DNA from: Bacteroidaceae bacterium
Lineage (GTDB): Bacteria; Bacteroidota; Bacteroidia; Bacteroidales; Bacteroidaceae
NCBI GenBank assembly: GCA_017447625.1
Contig: JAFSNB010000041.1
Coordinates: 1 to 58,591 of the forward strand
Reading direction: 5' to 3'
DNA length: 58,591 bases
The notes beneath the pieces are model-generated. The model had not been told where the DNA came from and did no database searches. It saw nothing but the letters and a program-made list of their open reading frames with translations. The translations under genes were made by a program, and so were the position numbers. This document shows positions 757 to 8,847 of the stretch, one piece after another (position 1 is the first letter of the stretch; each line of letters opens with the position of its first letter).

Positions 757-1929
757 TTATGATGCTTGAATTAATGAACTCCAATCAATACCAGGACAAG
801 TAACAGCATAGTACTTGTCATTGATAGCACACAACAAACAAACTTTATCATTCTTATCTCTACTTATTTTCAGTTCAGACATTCTGACATCGTCAACAAG
901 TCCTTCTTTATCAAGAGTTTTTCTTAATAACTGTGCTTCAAAAAGTAATTGTAAGATGCCATTTTGTTGAGAAGTAAAATCAATGTTATATTCTATATCG
1001 TCAATTTGTATTTTTTTGCTCTTCAGAAAGGTTTTTACAAATTCACTTGCATTCATTATGTCAGAAAGAAAAGGTGTCCCATTAAATAAGCTAACTTGTA
1101 CAAGTGTTTTCTTTTTGCTTTCAACAACAATTGACAATACATTACCAATACTATAAAAGATAGCATCATTGATTTTAATAGATTTAAATGATTCATACCA
1201 CACATGACCATCGATGGACACGTTTTTATGGCATCTACAGTTCACAATCCTTCCTTCTCTTCCACTTGGCAGTTGTATTGTGTGGTTACCAATTTCTATC
1301 GTGTTGTATATAGGAATATCAGTTCCGACATTATAATCCAAAACATCAATTAATGTTGAACCTGGTCCAGATATATTGAATGAAATTTGTTTGGAAATAA
1401 TGTTAATTGGTGACAGATTCTCTGTTTGAAAAGCACTTTGCCAGTCACGATTATTTAAAAAGTTGATACAATACCAATAAAACCTTTCAATCTCAGGAAC
1501 GGCACTAAGTTTAATACTGGTTGTTTTTTGCCCAGGTGCCTCACGAAGATATGTTTTTAATTGTTCTGGAGTTAAGAGGGCACAATAGATTTTTGATTCA
1601 TTGTTTTTTTCATTAAAACATACGACAAAATATGCTATGCCGCCATTTTTTCTGTAATGATTCAAGTCAGAAACAGGAATCTTATATTTTATGACAGGAG
1701 AAAAAGATGTTTTTGTTTTATGAATACGACCCTTGACTTGAACTTTAATTAATCTGTCTACATTTCTGTTTAGATTGTTTGTGTCACAGGAATCATACAC
1801 AACAATATCTCCATCCCATAAAGGGAATGTATTAGAAGTATCTATATACGGAACCATCTTTGTAGACCTTGACAGGTATCTATTAACTTCTGAAACGGCA
1901 AGTATTTCAACATTAACGGTTGTTATCAT
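757..1929 (-). CDS. DUF4365 domain protein, candidate PD-(D/E)XK nuclease
   Basis: 390 residues. The N-terminal part matches my recollection of the DUF4365 family. E14, the DGD at 39-41 and Q64-V-K66 are spaced like the E, D and (D/E/Q)xK residues of PD-(D/E)XK nucleases, so a nuclease role is inferred and not shown. The remaining 250 residues are unrecognised and look beta-rich. The ATG overlaps the stop of the DUF4391 gene by four bases (ATGA), which suggests translational coupling and one operon. The gene is clearly more AT-rich than its neighbours, with long A and T runs, so it may be a later insertion in the operon. It could instead be a regulatory or toxin-like partner. Family confidence is good; function is open. 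Confidence 0.75.
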   Translation of the reverse strand: MITTVNVEILAVSEVNRYLSRSTKMVPYIDTSNTFPLWDGDIVVYDSCDTNNLNRNVDRLIKVQVKGRIHKTKTSFSPVIKYKIPVSDLNHYRKNGGIAYFVVCFNEKNNESKIYCALLTPEQLKTYLREAPGQKTTSIKLSAVPEIERFYWYCINFLNNRDWQSAFQTENLSPINIISKQISFNISGPGSTLIDVLDYNVGTDIPIYNTIEIGNHTIQLPSGREGRIVNCRCHKNVSIDGHVWYESFKSIKINDAIFYSIGNVLSIVVESKKKTLVQVSLFNGTPFLSDIMNASEFVKTFLKSKKIQIDDIEYNIDFTSQQNGILQLLFEAQLLRKTLDKEGLVDDVRMSELKISRDKNDKVCLLCAINDKYYAVTCPGIDWSSLIQAS

Positions 1930-2540
1930 ACACTTAGGTGATTTTTTAGTTCTACAATCTTTTGATGCAAATCATACTTCTTTCGTGTCTGCTTTTCTGT
2001 GCGACATTGCTTTTCGAGTATTTCTATCTGTCGAAGCAACTTTTCTCGCTGCTCACGATTGATAATCTGTTCCTCGATGGTTTCTTCTGCCTGGGCATCC
2101 AAGCCCCCAATGGAAAAGATAAAGTTCTGCCAGGCATCATCAAGGGTTAAGCCTTTCAAATCAAGACTGACGAATTCGGTCTTTTGCCACTCAGACTTAA
2201 GCAGACGAGTATGGAAAACTGCGAACTGGGTTTCTTCGCCATATTGCAGGGCGAATATCATTTTCTGTCCCACTAACTTATTGAGCAATAACAAGCACTG
2301 GTCACTATACTCTTTTTGCTTCAAGATGACATGCACAAAGTAAAAGCCTGGGATGTCCTTCCCTGCTGCCAAAGTTGGCACTGTTGCTTGTGAGATACGA
2401 GCCACTATCACCATGCGACTGATGTCTGCATCGAAGCGGTTACGCTCTGCCACTTTGAGATTGAATTTCTCAAAGAAAGCCTTCTTGGGAAGAGGCTGAT
2501 TGACGACAGTAGAAGCAGGCAGTCCGAACATAGGCATCAC
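1926..2540 (-). CDS. DUF4391 domain protein of a helicase-methylase operon
   Basis: 204 residues, matching the DUF4391 family as I know it: small proteins of unknown biochemistry found next to SNF2-type helicases and type III-like methyltransferases. The first 150 residues look globular. The last 50 are a charged coiled-coil stretch (EEQIINREQREKLLRQIEIL and on to about residue 200), which could mediate complex formation with helicase or methylase. It overlaps the helicase stop by four bases at its start and the DUF4365 start by four bases at its end, so all three are probably translated together. No catalytic motif is evident. The call rests on sequence resemblance and on neighbours. Confidence 0.75.
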   Translation of the reverse strand: MMPMFGLPASTVVNQPLPKKAFFEKFNLKVAERNRFDADISRMVIVARISQATVPTLAAGKDIPGFYFVHVILKQKEYSDQCLLLLNKLVGQKMIFALQYGEETQFAVFHTRLLKSEWQKTEFVSLDLKGLTLDDAWQNFIFSIGGLDAQAEETIEEQIINREQREKLLRQIEILEKQCRTEKQTRKKYDLHQKIVELKNHLSV

Positions 2541-5500
2541 TTAATCACTAAGAAACAAATCAGTTCAAAATCATCGAGACCCACATAATGTTCTTCAAAG
2601 AGTTCTCCAGCAAAACCTTCCAAGAAACTATCTACATTCGACTGCTCCTTGACGGAGATAATCGAATTGATGGCCTTACTCAGAAGGTCGGAATATTTAC
2701 CCATCCGCAAGCCATCTCTCGTTTCCTTGTTGAGCTCTCGGCACAGCGTTACGTCTGGCTTGTCTATAGGCTTGCAAATCAGACGCATCTTGTCAAGCAA
2801 GTCTTTCGGATGCAAGTGGTCAACCTGCACTTCGCCATCATCACGGATATAGACCATGTAGAAAGGATGCAACTGGTTCTTGTGGTCGATATTCACGCCT
2901 GCGGTTCTGTTCTTCAATACGAAGATGGTACCTGCAGGAGTTTGCTGGTTACCTCGTACCACAGCATGAAGTCCGAAGGGCGTATGTTCCACATCATGAT
3001 TACCTTGCATGTATTCCAACAAGTCAAGACGGAACTCGTTTAGTCCCAAGTCCATGATGCTGACACCGCTATTCATTTCTTCCAAATCGACCACATCTTC
3101 CTTCAAGCGTTCCAATTGCAGACGACGGTATTCCAGATCATCTTTTTCTTCTGGCGAAAGAATATTGTCATCACCTGTGGCAGTCATCACCGTTACTTTC
3201 ATACGTGACTCAACACGCCCCTTTAAGTTGATGTATTCGTCGAGGGTCATGTCTGGCCAGTAGTTGACCAATTGGATTTGAGCATTAAGAGAGCCTATTC
3301 TGTCTATTCTGCCAAAGCGCTGGATAATTCGAACGGGATTCCAATGGATGTCGTAATTCAAAAGGAAGTCGCAATCTTGCAAGTTTTGGCCTTCACTAAT
3401 GCAATCGGTTGCTATCAAGACATCGATATCTTCGTGTAAATGTGGATAGATAGCTGCGCGTTCTTTTGATATTGGTGAGAAGAGTGTAAGCACTTTGTTG
3501 AAGTCGAGCTTCTCCTTCAACTTCAAGGTGCTACGGGCTTCCACATCGCCAGTTACTAATGCTACGTTTAGTCCGTACTTCGACTTGATGCGTTCTGCCA
3601 GATTGTTATACAGATATTCCGCAGTATCGGAGAAGGCTGTGAAGATAATTACCTTCTTGTTGTCGCCATTGATAGGATTGGCGAATTTATTCTGCAAATC
3701 TGCGACGAGCTGTTGCAGTTTCGAGTCATGCTCAGGAGTGATACTCTCCAACATCTTCAGCAGCAAGCAGATAATCTCCAAGTCGCCCTCTATCTCTCTC
3801 TTCCAAGATATGTCGTCCATATCCTCCAAGAGGATACGGTTTTTCTTCTTACCAATGGTGAAGTCCTGTTCGTCTTCATCTACATCGGCACTCTCGTAGT
3901 CATCTACTGATATACGACGCTCGCCATTTTGGAATCGTGCAATAGCATCGAGCGTTTCTTGCATATAGTCACGAATACGACCCAATGTCAGACGGAAAGA
4001 ATTGACAGATGATTCCAGGCGTTTCAGCAACTGGATGTTCATCAGACGCTGAATGCCTCGTTCGCGTTCTTCAATGCTCAGTCGATGGCCTGTAGAACTT
4101 TCCTCCTCATTATACTTATAGCGCAGAGTGGGTTGGATGAATGCTGAGGGTGTATAAATTGCCAGTCGGAGCATCTGCAACTGCTCAAATATCTCGTTGT
4201 AGTTGATGGCTGTGCCAAGATCTGTCAGATGAGGCTGACGGGAAATGGGCTTCAGTCGCTTGGGGAAAGTGCCAATATCTGTGGTATCGTAGTATTGCTG
4301 AATATGTTTGCGACTTCGGGCAATGGTGACTGCATCAAGCAATTTGAAGAAATCAAAGTCAAGCATTCTCAAAAGACGCTCTGTGGTACGCTCTTCTGGT
4401 GCAAAGTTTGCCCACATGTTATATGCTGCTTGTGCCTGACGGAAGATATCATCTATGCCTTTATTGGTTGGCAACAGTTCGTCGAAAGCCTTGGCCTTGC
4501 CCTCGTATGCCAGCTGAAGTTGGTTCTTCAAGTCTCCGAAGCGGTTGTTGACAGGGGTTGCTGAAAGCATAAGCACCTTAGTCTTGACACCTGTCGTAAT
4601 AACTTTGTTCATCAGTCGCAAATAGCGATTCTCACGTGGATTCTCGCCATTCTCGTCTGTTGATACCTTGCCGCCATTGCGGAAGTTATGGCTCTCGTCA
4701 ATAACAACTAAGTCATAGTTACCCCAATTGACACGTTCAAGGTCGAGGTCGTTGCTCTTTCCCTGTTCGCGACTGAGATCAGTATGATAAAGAATGTCGT
4801 AGTTCAGACGGTCTTTTGCCAACGGGTTGTTTACATAGTTTTGGCGATAAGTATTCCAGTTCTCATAAAGCTTTTTGGGACAAAGAACTAAGACCGTTCT
4901 GTTACGACTCTCGAAATATTTTATAACGGCAAGGGCAGAGAATGTTTTTCCCAAACCTACGCTGTCAGCAAGAATACAACCATTGTATTTCTCCAGTTTA
5001 TTGATGACAGCCAAGGCGGCGTCACGTTGAAAATTATAGAGTTTGTTCCAAATGGCTGAGTTTTTAAAGCCTGTTGCTTCATTCGGTAGTTCGTCCTCGC
5101 TGATGTCTTCCAGAAACTCATTGAAGATATTGTAGAGTGCAACGAAATAGAGAAATTCGGGAGCATTCTCCTTATAAGCGTTGCTTATGCTGTCTATGAC
5201 TTCATCAGTTACCACTTGCAAACGACTGGTGTCGTTCCATAGCTGATTGAAGAGGTCTATAAAACCTTTCGATGTAGGAGCCTCAAACTTGTTAATCATC
5301 GTATAGGCGTTATTGCCTTTCTCGCACCCCAGTTCTACGGTAGTGAAGCCTTCTATCGGATAATAGCTTACATCATCAAGATTGATGATACCATTCATCT
5401 TCTCATTAGTCTTGTTGGATTTGAAACAGACTTTTTCGCGAATCCATTCTGCACACTCACGGGCAATAGCCTTTTGGGTCAGTTCGTTGCGTAGCTTAAC

Positions 5501-5764
5501 CTCAAACTCAGAACCATAGAGCGTTCGCTCACGATCTAAACGGGGAATATAGAATTCACGTTGCTGCTTTGGTGTCTTCTCTGTGGTAAAGGTGGGCGAA
5601 GTAAATATGAAGCGCAGTTCCTTTATGTCCTTCAAGGCCTCTTTCAGTTCTTGAAAGGCATAAATAGAGAAACAGGAGGCCGCAATGGATAGTCGGCTTC
5701 CAGATTTCATCTGCGCTGCAAGGTCCTCGCGCAGAGTCTTATTTACGTTATTTATTAGCTCCAC
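2537..5764 (-). CDS. SNF2/DEAD-like helicase with PLD-like N-terminal domain
   Basis: 1075 residues. Residues 1-190 resemble the phospholipase-D-like region of defence helicases, but I see no HxKx4D motif, so the nuclease site looks degenerate. The motor has Walker A ADSVGLGKT at 266-274, the DESH box at 356-359, LSATP and motif VI QRFGRIDRIG at 815-824, the layout of a superfamily 2, SNF2-type translocase. The C-terminal 200 residues are family-specific. The start is a GTG at 5764; an in-frame TGA at 5786-5788 rules out a longer form, and the N-terminus matches where such proteins normally begin. It is first in the operon with DUF4391, DUF4365 and the methyltransferase, so it probably translocates on DNA in a defence complex. 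Its leader holds a large stem-loop. Confidence 0.88.
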   Translation of the reverse strand: MELINNVNKTLREDLAAQMKSGSRLSIAASCFSIYAFQELKEALKDIKELRFIFTSPTFTTEKTPKQQREFYIPRLDRERTLYGSEFEVKLRNELTQKAIARECAEWIREKVCFKSNKTNEKMNGIINLDDVSYYPIEGFTTVELGCEKGNNAYTMINKFEAPTSKGFIDLFNQLWNDTSRLQVVTDEVIDSISNAYKENAPEFLYFVALYNIFNEFLEDISEDELPNEATGFKNSAIWNKLYNFQRDAALAVINKLEKYNGCILADSVGLGKTFSALAVIKYFESRNRTVLVLCPKKLYENWNTYRQNYVNNPLAKDRLNYDILYHTDLSREQGKSNDLDLERVNWGNYDLVVIDESHNFRNGGKVSTDENGENPRENRYLRLMNKVITTGVKTKVLMLSATPVNNRFGDLKNQLQLAYEGKAKAFDELLPTNKGIDDIFRQAQAAYNMWANFAPEERTTERLLRMLDFDFFKLLDAVTIARSRKHIQQYYDTTDIGTFPKRLKPISRQPHLTDLGTAINYNEIFEQLQMLRLAIYTPSAFIQPTLRYKYNEEESSTGHRLSIEERERGIQRLMNIQLLKRLESSVNSFRLTLGRIRDYMQETLDAIARFQNGERRISVDDYESADVDEDEQDFTIGKKKNRILLEDMDDISWKREIEGDLEIICLLLKMLESITPEHDSKLQQLVADLQNKFANPINGDNKKVIIFTAFSDTAEYLYNNLAERIKSKYGLNVALVTGDVEARSTLKLKEKLDFNKVLTLFSPISKERAAIYPHLHEDIDVLIATDCISEGQNLQDCDFLLNYDIHWNPVRIIQRFGRIDRIGSLNAQIQLVNYWPDMTLDEYINLKGRVESRMKVTVMTATGDDNILSPEEKDDLEYRRLQLERLKEDVVDLEEMNSGVSIMDLGLNEFRLDLLEYMQGNHDVEHTPFGLHAVVRGNQQTPAGTIFVLKNRTAGVNIDHKNQLHPFYMVYIRDDGEVQVDHLHPKDLLDKMRLICKPIDKPDVTLCRELNKETRDGLRMGKYSDLLSKAINSIISVKEQSNVDSFLEGFAGELFEEHYVGLDDFELICFLVIK

Positions 5765-6638: not shown

Positions 6639-6687
6639 CGCATTCTGAAGAATCTCCGTCAGGCTGAGAGATTTTTTGGTTATCTTA

Positions 6688-6938
6688 AAAGGTCTTCACA
6701 AAAGAGGGTTAATGACCTGTATATCAACAGTATAAGCAAAACAAAACCTTCACAAGATGTTCACATAACCTTCACAACCCTTCACCAAACCTTCACACGA
6801 GAAGGATGTGAAGGCTTGTGAAAGTCTGGTGAACACCTTGTGAAGGCCTTGTGAATGTTTGAACGGCTCATCCAAAACTCAAAGAAGCTTATATACAGAG
6901 AGTTAGCTACTAATTTTTCTTCTTGTGTGAAGACCTTT
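6688..6938. repeat. Phased inverted array of TTCACA/TGTGAA hexamers
   Basis: Five TTCACA-type hexamers start at 6749, 6760, 6771, 6781 (TTCACC) and 6792, and five TGTGAA-type hexamers start at 6807, 6817, 6828 (GGTGAA), 6839 and 6850. The intervals are 10 or 11 bases, one helical turn. The whole is bracketed by a perfect 13-bp inverted repeat, AAAGGTCTTCACA (6688-6700) and TGTGAAGACCTTT (6926-6938). The arrangement suggests one face of the helix bound by a repeated protein, or a long imperfect hairpin. Function unknown. Confidence 0.75.
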
Positions 6939-7153
6939 ATTATTTACGATTTCTTGAGGTTATTGAAACCAGAAGCTTGAAAGCCGAAGCCTGAAACCTG
7001 AAACTTGAAACTAAGAAGTTAATCTTCACCCTACAAATAGAACAATCGGGGGGCGGATTTGGGGCGATTTGTTGAGAGAAAAAATGACGAAATAGAACGA
7101 GAAAAAGGGCAATTTACTAAAGAAAAGGGGCGATTTTCACGAGCAAGATGCCG

Positions 7154-7239
7154 AAATTGTACAGGGTGTAACAGGCATTTGCATATGGTCGAATGACCAT
7201 TTGACCAGCATCAAAACACCATTCGACCCTGTGCAATTT
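7154..7239. repeat. Compound inverted repeat
   Basis: AAATTGTACAGGGT (7154-7167) pairs with ACCCTGTGCAATTT (7226-7239) at 13 of 14 positions, and inside it GGTCGAATG (7187-7195) pairs perfectly with CATTCGACC (7220-7228). The two inner and outer right arms overlap by three bases. It could be a binding site or the end pair of a small degenerate element; no gene lies inside. Confidence 0.5.
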
Positions 7240-7382
7240 TGGGACAAGCCCTATTATATGGGATTTTGAGCCTTTTTCCATCAAAATGCCGCTCTTGAGC
7301 GATAGATTTTTCTAGATTGACAGAAAATTCGCACAAGAAAATTGAGGATAACAAGCTGAGGGTTAAAATGTTACAACGAAAA

Positions 7383-7455
7383 CAACCCTCTGAGAATCGC
7401 GTAAATTAAGATGATGGCGATTATGCGAGCATACAGACGAATCTCAGAGGGGTTG
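7383..7455. repeat. Inverted repeat with inner stem
   Basis: CAACCCTCTGAGA (7383-7395) matches TCTCAGAGGGGTTG (7442-7455) as an inverted repeat with one bulged base. ATCGC (7396-7400) and GCGAT (7417-7421) can form an inner stem. No ORF is enclosed. Confidence 0.45.
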
Positions 7456-7561
7456 ATTGTTCGATTTGTGGGCCCCCGTGTCCCCCGGTGGGGGGAGTTG
7501 GGTTGCACGCGCGCGCGAACATTATATTAATATAAAGAAGTTTAGCTGCGCTCAACTTCTT

Positions 7562-7780: not shown

Positions 7781-7821
7781 AATTGTCAATTGTCCAATTA
7801 TCAATTGACATTAGTTTTGGC

Positions 7822-8847
7822 TTACTTCAGCTCAGCGAGGTACTTGATAGTGCGAACCATCTGGCTGGTGTAGCTGTTCTCGTTGTCATACCAAGCAACA
7901 ACCTGAACGAGAGAGTTGCCGTCACCAATCTTGCTTACCATGGTCTGGTTAGCGTCGAAGAGTGAACCGAACTTCATTCCAATGATGTCGCTGGAAACGA
8001 GCTTCTCCTCGGTGTAACCGAAGCTCTCGTTCTGAGCAGCCTTCATAGCAGCGTTGATGCCCTCAACGGTAACTTCACCCTTAACAACAGCGTGCAGGAT
8101 GGTGGTTGAACCGGTGGGAGTCGGAACGCGCTGAGCGGCACCGATCAGTTTGCCGTTGAGCTCGGGGATAACGAGACCGATAGCCTTAGCAGCACCGGTG
8201 GAGTTGGGAACGATGTTCTGGGCACCTGCGCGAGCACGCTGAACATCACCCTTGCGCTGAGGACCGTCGAGGATCATCTGGTCGCCGGTGTAAGCGTGAA
8301 CGGTGGTCATGATACCGCTCTGGATGGGAGCGAAGTCGTTCAGAGCCTTGGTCATGGGAGCCAGGCAGTTGGTGGTGCAAGAAGCAGCGCTGATTACGGT
8401 GTCGGCGGGAGTCAGGGTCTTGTGGTTCACGTTGTAAACGATGGTGGGGAGGTCGTTGCCTGCGGGAGCAGAGATGACAACCTTCTTAGCACCAGCGGTC
8501 AGGTGAGCAGAAGCCTTCTCCTTGGAGGTGTAGAAACCGGTGCACTCCAGAACCACATCTACGTCCAGCTTGCCCCAAGGCAGCTCAGCTGCGTTAGGAA
8601 TAGCATAGATGGTGATCTTCTTGCCATCAACTACGATGAAGTCCTCACCAGCCTCAACGGTGTGCTTGTTCTCGCCGAACTTACCGCAGAAACCGCCCTG
8701 AGCGGTGTCATACTTCAACAGGTGAGCCAGCATTTTGGGGCTGGTCAGGTCGTTGATAGCGACAACTTCATAACCTTCAGCCTCGAACATCTGACGGAAA
8801 GCGAGGCGACCGATACGGCCAAAGCCGTTAATAGCAACTTTTGTCAT
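7822..8847 (-). CDS. gapA: Glyceraldehyde-3-phosphate dehydrogenase, type I
   Basis: 341 residues, the usual length. The Rossmann motif INGFGRIGR opens the protein and the active-site [12 protein letters not shown], with its catalytic cysteine, lies near residue 155. It carries out NAD-dependent oxidation of glyceraldehyde 3-phosphate to 1,3-bisphosphoglycerate in glycolysis, in the cytoplasm. The gene stands alone, with its own leader and a terminator. Codon use is strongly biased, as expected of a highly expressed gene. A candidate promoter lies 140 bases upstream. Nothing is unusual in the protein. Confidence 0.97.

Follow-up and report, generated by a model that had tools for sequence, protein, structure and literature searches.

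Mirrored arrays of phased short words accompany VapE-like helicase genes in Bacteroidales and may mark helicase-loading sites

Results

A mirrored array of phased words in the window

The window, the whole 58.6-kb stretch of Bacteroidaceae DNA analysed here, carries on its minus strand (757-5764) a row of genes, possibly a defence cluster, that match DUF4365 (weakly) and DUF4391 and include an SNF2-type helicase. It also holds a non-coding block with a dense array of short words, the features of which are collected in Table 1. The left inner words are TTCACA at 6749, 6760, 6771 and 6792 and TTCACC at 6781; the right inner words, on the opposite strand, are TGTGAA at 6807, 6817, 6839 and 6850 and GGTGAA at 6828. 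Eight of the ten are exact TTCACA/TGTGAA and the other two carry one change each, giving the consensus TTCACM (M = A or C) five times per strand. With steps of 11, 11, 10 and 11 bp on the left and 10, 11, 11 and 11 bp on the right, these positions confirm what an earlier sequence-only reading had described, namely ten phased hexamers inverted about a centre. The perfect 13-bp inverted repeat that it placed around them (6688-6700 and 6926-6938) is present as well, as the core of 18-nt arms that are 94% complementary. Since each outer arm adds one word to the ten inner ones, there are 12 words in total.

Table 1. Coordinates of the array and the adjoining features in the window
Feature	Position	Strand	Remarks
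Duplicated non-coding block	6667..7470	.	blastn; second copy, 92%, at own-genome C15:31676-32478
Left outer arm of enclosing inverted repeat	6688..6705	+	outer word TTCACA 6695-6700; complementary to 6921-6938
Spacer, outer to inner words	6706..6748	+	by eye; has TGTATATCAA at 6718-6727
Left inner array	6749..6797	+	five TTCACM words
Centre separating the half-arrays	6798..6806	.	9 nt
Right inner array	6807..6855	-	five words on opposite strand
Right outer arm	6921..6938	-	outer word TGTGAA 6926-6931
Adjacent ~440-bp repeat	7033..7470	.	15-bp inverted ends ACAAATMGAACAATC; six own-genome copies

The array clearly exceeds what chance would produce. A search for three phased TTCAC words gives six matches in the window and none in 100 dinucleotide shuffles, and among 60 overlapping tiles that cover nearly the whole window, a mirrored-array score of 4 is reached only by the two that hold the array. 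A chance origin of such arrays is ruled out by the shuffles (0/100) and by the Markov null for the helicase loci described below (0/74). As a single strand, the array folds strongly (z -9.4 against its shuffles), as would be expected of a long structured RNA, a hairpin acting post-transcriptionally as an attenuator or processed RNA; against this, no Rfam family matches the window at gathering score.

Copies and relatives in the own genome

A search of the genome and its relatives for the phased words, proposed together with the original description, returns a 97% copy of the array in the own genome (C15:32207-32457), which is part of the ~800-bp duplicated block, and the same layout with other words. 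In 60 other genomes, a search with the block finds nine with short matches only (GAAAC-type repeats and one 63-bp piece). One of the six copies of the adjacent ~440-bp repeat is partial, and four of the six adjoin an array or half-array; the repeat also contains internal palindromes. On contigs C32 and C25, a hairpin and a half-hairpin of the same layout lie beside a repeat of this type, but are composed of the words CCTACACAA / TTGTGCAGG. By eye, TGTATATCAA is found at the corresponding spacer position in both. The C32 relative folds better than its shuffles (z -4.9), in keeping with a structured RNA, whereas the C25 relative, represented by its left half only, folds no better than its shuffles, which argues against one.

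At the GAPDH locus, homology to the 13 relatives that rank directly behind the own match ends at window position 7809-7837. As it ends despite ~1.5 kb of flank there, the hairpin side is not common to these relatives. Both this break and the near-identical dispersed copy fit an alternative in which the arrays are transposon ends, that is, transposase-binding repeats, and the window copy is a derivative resembling a MITE. The same holds for the loci L314 and L317, which have ~1.4 kb in common at 90% with unrelated flanks. MITEs and REP-type repeats are, as here, short, dispersed and non-coding and have inverted ends; the present arrays differ from them by their internal phased words and by being linked to a gene for a helicase, not a transposase.

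Several further features of the own genome deserve mention in their own right. TGTAGTG-type ends, which we take to resemble those of the IS3 family, lie ~30-45 bp beyond the outer words of three hairpins (L005:4483, L080:2178 and L081:1620), with a second such end at L005:4693. The C32 hairpin is adjoined by a HEPN and nucleotidyltransferase pair (L081:776-1521). On contig C35, mirrored ACCGAA-type words and palindromes (L112:5861-6390) are located upstream of a PDDEXK_2 gene. We rejected the PDDEXK_2 (Rpn-type) gene as a general partner; the own genome has one such gene.

The layout in other Bacteroidales

The layout recurs with different words (GCTTCACA, CCCTACGCAACC, GCCTACAC) in the same-genus genomes G064, G137, G153 and G070. 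A pattern scan of a genome collection returned at least 118 stretches and, among the matches listed, 17 with at least four words per strand within 250 bp. Ten Bacteroidales MAGs and L180 were read closely; the remaining six of the 17 come from archaea and a Bacillus MAG. Among the matches listed, the layout is seen in Bacteroidales MAGs including RGIG2785, RGIG9747, RUG13423 and RUG12062, and the word-pattern scan also gave at least 15 viral stretches. By eye, the words agree within one element while the stretches between them differ, a pattern that again speaks against a structured RNA.

Other repeats appear in the same material. In G137 (contig C1, L417), a TTCACA hairpin whose centre contains palindromes is positioned just upstream of a helicase gene. 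Rows of palindromes (e.g. AAGACCGCGGTCTT, GTTCCATGCATGGAAC) are present beside arrays or helicase genes at L066, L068, L088, L089, L096, L312, L331 and L417, and inspection by eye shows similar rows in Bacteroides and Parabacteroides records (L431, L432, L434), where they lie upstream of helicase genes. Pedobacter contigs (L115, L137, L151, L169, L189, L195, L212, L223) display a recurrent sequence near CTTCACACCTGGTTCACACNTCCTTCACA, and in Aenigmatarchaeota contigs (L138, L172, L191, L220) the pattern match is surrounded by numerous TTCAC and GTGAA words.

A lead to a partner gene comes from L145, a locus in a Bacteroidaceae MAG from horse faeces, in which one 397-aa protein is framed by two TTCACA arrays, mirrored and separated by 2 kb, with the same layout as the window array. 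Because it was found through the word-pattern scan, we treat this locus as a lead and not as an independent case. The protein matches the VapE-like family (PF05272) with 112.5 bits against a cut-off of 25 and DUF3874 with 46.5 against 28.3 (Pfam), and its closest solved structure by sequence is VapE (7pds). The accompanying protein has Pfam matches to VapE-like, DUF3874 and DUF5906, with no nuclease or transposase domain among them, which weighs against transposon ends. PHROGs matches are annotated as DNA helicase or primase. The predicted structures, with a mean pLDDT of 34 for the whole protein and 54 for the C-terminus, are of too low quality to argue for a DNA-binding fold. A viral origin was rejected: the helicase query has no matches in viral contigs, and an alignment query gives 24 relatives at 21-35% identity. 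The search for helicase relatives also returned 59 plasmid and 338 phage records, all below 60% identity.

Association of arrays with helicase genes

Queried with an aligned set of 28 short helicases, which are VapE-like and carry DUF3874 at the C-terminus, 79 of 139 genomes give matches at E <= 1e-60. From the matches listed in that search, 74 short-helicase loci were scored with a wide test (8-mers with at most one mismatch, steps of 9-12 bp, either side of the gene). Mirrored phased words reach a score of at least 5 near 29 of the 74 genes and at least 4 near 40, compared with 0/74 and 1/74 for the Markov null; the other 45 loci score below 5. Within the 29 there are doubtful words, namely 9-bp tandem repeats at L304, L386 and L398 and, at L285, a scored word that is not the array word. 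In the first set, 10/28 short helicases and 5/33 others (15/61 in total) score at least 5 in the same test, with none at this score among 183 Markov sequences (two at 4) or among 30 real stretches further out at the same loci. Under a strict test that demands one half-array on each side of the gene, both near it, the counts are 5/27 for short and 1/31 for other helicases, against 5/150 for swapped flank pairs. The scoring was negative for all six helicase loci taken from records of Bacteroides, Parabacteroides and faecal phages. The sequence-only reading proposed to look for a gene that constantly stands beside the words; VapE/DUF3874 helicase genes are found to accompany such arrays (29/74 against 0/74 for Markov sequences).

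Words could be extracted, with steps of 10-12 bp and closer flanks, at 27 of the 74 loci. The C-rich strand lies on the left half in 25 of these, as in the window. In 19 loci the gene separates the two half-arrays, and in eight both lie on one side of it. The former arrangement has opposite bearings on two of the alternatives. Mirrored half-arrays around a single gene are what transposon ends would look like; the eight one-sided loci do not conform to this, and together with the domain content of the partner protein they lead us to regard transposon ends as unlikely. For a structured RNA, the strong fold notwithstanding, half-arrays split by a gene of more than 1 kb in 19/27 loci are hard to accommodate. 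The long RNA hairpin, one of the roles initially considered, is therefore disfavoured, and we consider it very improbable.

When the most repeated 8-mers of 66 helicase loci are picked without regard to spacing, their spacings peak at 11 bp (78, compared with 16 for 10 bp and 15 for 12 bp) and a second time at 21-22 bp (20). A further peak at 7-8 bp (44) is not accounted for by helical phasing; our guess is that it stems from palindromes and simple repeats. The array could have turned out to be a one-off duplication, or its words to be randomly spaced in homologous loci. Both possibilities were followed up, and what was found instead is an own-genome copy and the 11-bp spacing peak.

Gene-less copies

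A profile search detects no short-helicase relative in the window, and of the 25 loci searched in this way together with the window, only L104 and L145 carry the short-helicase gene. Having no helicase gene beside its array, the window copy is a gene-less relative and not a full member of the class. Of 61 genomes in the genus, 40 contain PF05272; the own genome has three copies (133, 120 and 65 bits). This genome, which is 73% complete, contains no short-helicase relative at E <= 1e-60, and none of its three PF05272 genes (0/3) has TTCACA words, indicating that the cognate protein is missing from it. One own-genome helicase gene on contig C1 (L316) has mirrored words just downstream by eye, with a score of 4. 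In G153, the same words occur in a gene-less array (L096/L105) as in one linked to a helicase (L420); for the gene-less arrays of G070 and G064, no word common with the helicase arrays seen there was noted by eye.

Tests for covariation of word and C-terminal domain

The C-terminal part of the helicases (DUF3874) is more variable than the core, with mean pairwise identities of 0.33 and 0.65, respectively. Mantel tests were run on 23 loci, four of the 27 (L311, L286, L415, L365) being left out for doubtful words. Word similarity correlates with protein similarity for the C-terminus (r 0.21, p 0.006) and for the core (r 0.28, p 0.001), and the partial correlation with the C-terminus, with the core held, is not significant across the 23 loci (r 0.05, p 0.27). 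In a clade of 11 with core identity of at least 0.8, examined after the global test had failed, the word follows DUF3874 given the core (partial r 0.58, p 0.0002), in contrast to the counter-tests of the core given DUF3874 (r -0.41) and the N-terminus given the core (0.04). In a clade of four, a weak trend has the same direction (p 0.04). The behaviour is illustrated by L392 and L429, with cores 97% identical and C-termini 57% identical, where the words are ATATACCT and ATGAGGTTT.

This covariation also bears on a third alternative, namely an operator or partition (centromere-like) site that serves a regulator or ParB-type protein and not replication. Phased mirrored sites suit any cooperative binder, and several arrays are located just upstream of the helicase gene. 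However, arrays also occur downstream or on both sides of it, and one clade shows covariation of the word with the C-terminus of the helicase itself, so that we find such a site quite improbable.

Discussion

Arrays with private words surround helicase genes in relatives, and for this reason the window array looks like a helicase docking site. The reading that we favour as probable, judged from sequence comparison, is that such an array serves a self-loading VapE-like helicase as its iteron-type loading site (origin), and that the window holds a gene-less copy. Helicase subunits would bind the words via the C-terminal DUF3874 domain, and the helical phasing would align them on one face of the DNA. 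The mirrored half-arrays would set two oligomers in opposite orientation about the centre, which could then be opened between them. In gene-bearing elements, the helicase gene lies between or beside the half-arrays; the window copy may be an orphan origin or else a non-autonomous passenger that a helicase serves in trans. For the window array, we infer this role from class to member. An oligomeric DNA-binding protein and a replication or partition site, initially offered as separate options, are supported together by the association with helicase genes and the covariation with the C-terminus in one clade.

For SaPI Rep-type satellite helicases with iteron origins, PMC7581432 cites Ubeda 2007. 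These self-loading helicases of mobile elements offer the closest comparison: in the sections of PMC7581432 that treat them, the C-terminal domain recognises a short-repeat origin beside the helicase's own gene, and the protein appears to bind the origin as two hexamers. The present arrays fit this scheme, as phased words would align subunits and mirrored halves suit two opposed oligomers. They differ from it in the half-arrays on both sides or one side of a single gene, the mirrored 10-11 bp steps, the private word per element, the DUF3874 C-terminus, the chromosomal Bacteroidales setting and the gene-less copies. SCCmec Cch2 similarly binds direct repeats beside its gene, a putative origin, through a C-terminal domain, but it has three 5-nt iterons, and its description in the relevant part of PMC7581432 includes no mirrored phased arrays. 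The PLE satellite origin likewise has repeats read by its own initiator, RepA, which, according to the portion of PMC7145576 concerned, belongs to a different initiator family (RepA_N) and has another repeat layout. The window array may be a variant of iteron origins that is new in layout, possibly with a minimal type of mobile element behind it. In the literature searched, which comprised no preprints and few subscription papers, we found no paper on arrays of this kind and no mention of DUF3874.

The dispersed copies, together with L314 and L317, suggest that the elements are mobile. Extending this, we would venture, as a rather doubtful proposition, that Bacteroidales have minimal single-gene mobile replicons, in which a VapE/DUF3874 helicase is framed by mirrored phased iterons. 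Word and reader domain would be re-coded together in each lineage, so that cross-talk is avoided; gene-less copies such as that in the window would be parasites on these helicases, and movement would be driven by replication without a transposase.

The favoured reading proposes a role for DUF3874, for which Pfam lists no function, as a reader of private DNA words, and it offers an explanation of the intergenic hairpins that recur as a class in gut Bacteroidales. With natural pairs of reader domain and word at hand, the recognition code of self-loading helicases would become directly testable. If the elements do move, a mobile element with only a helicase would be unusual.
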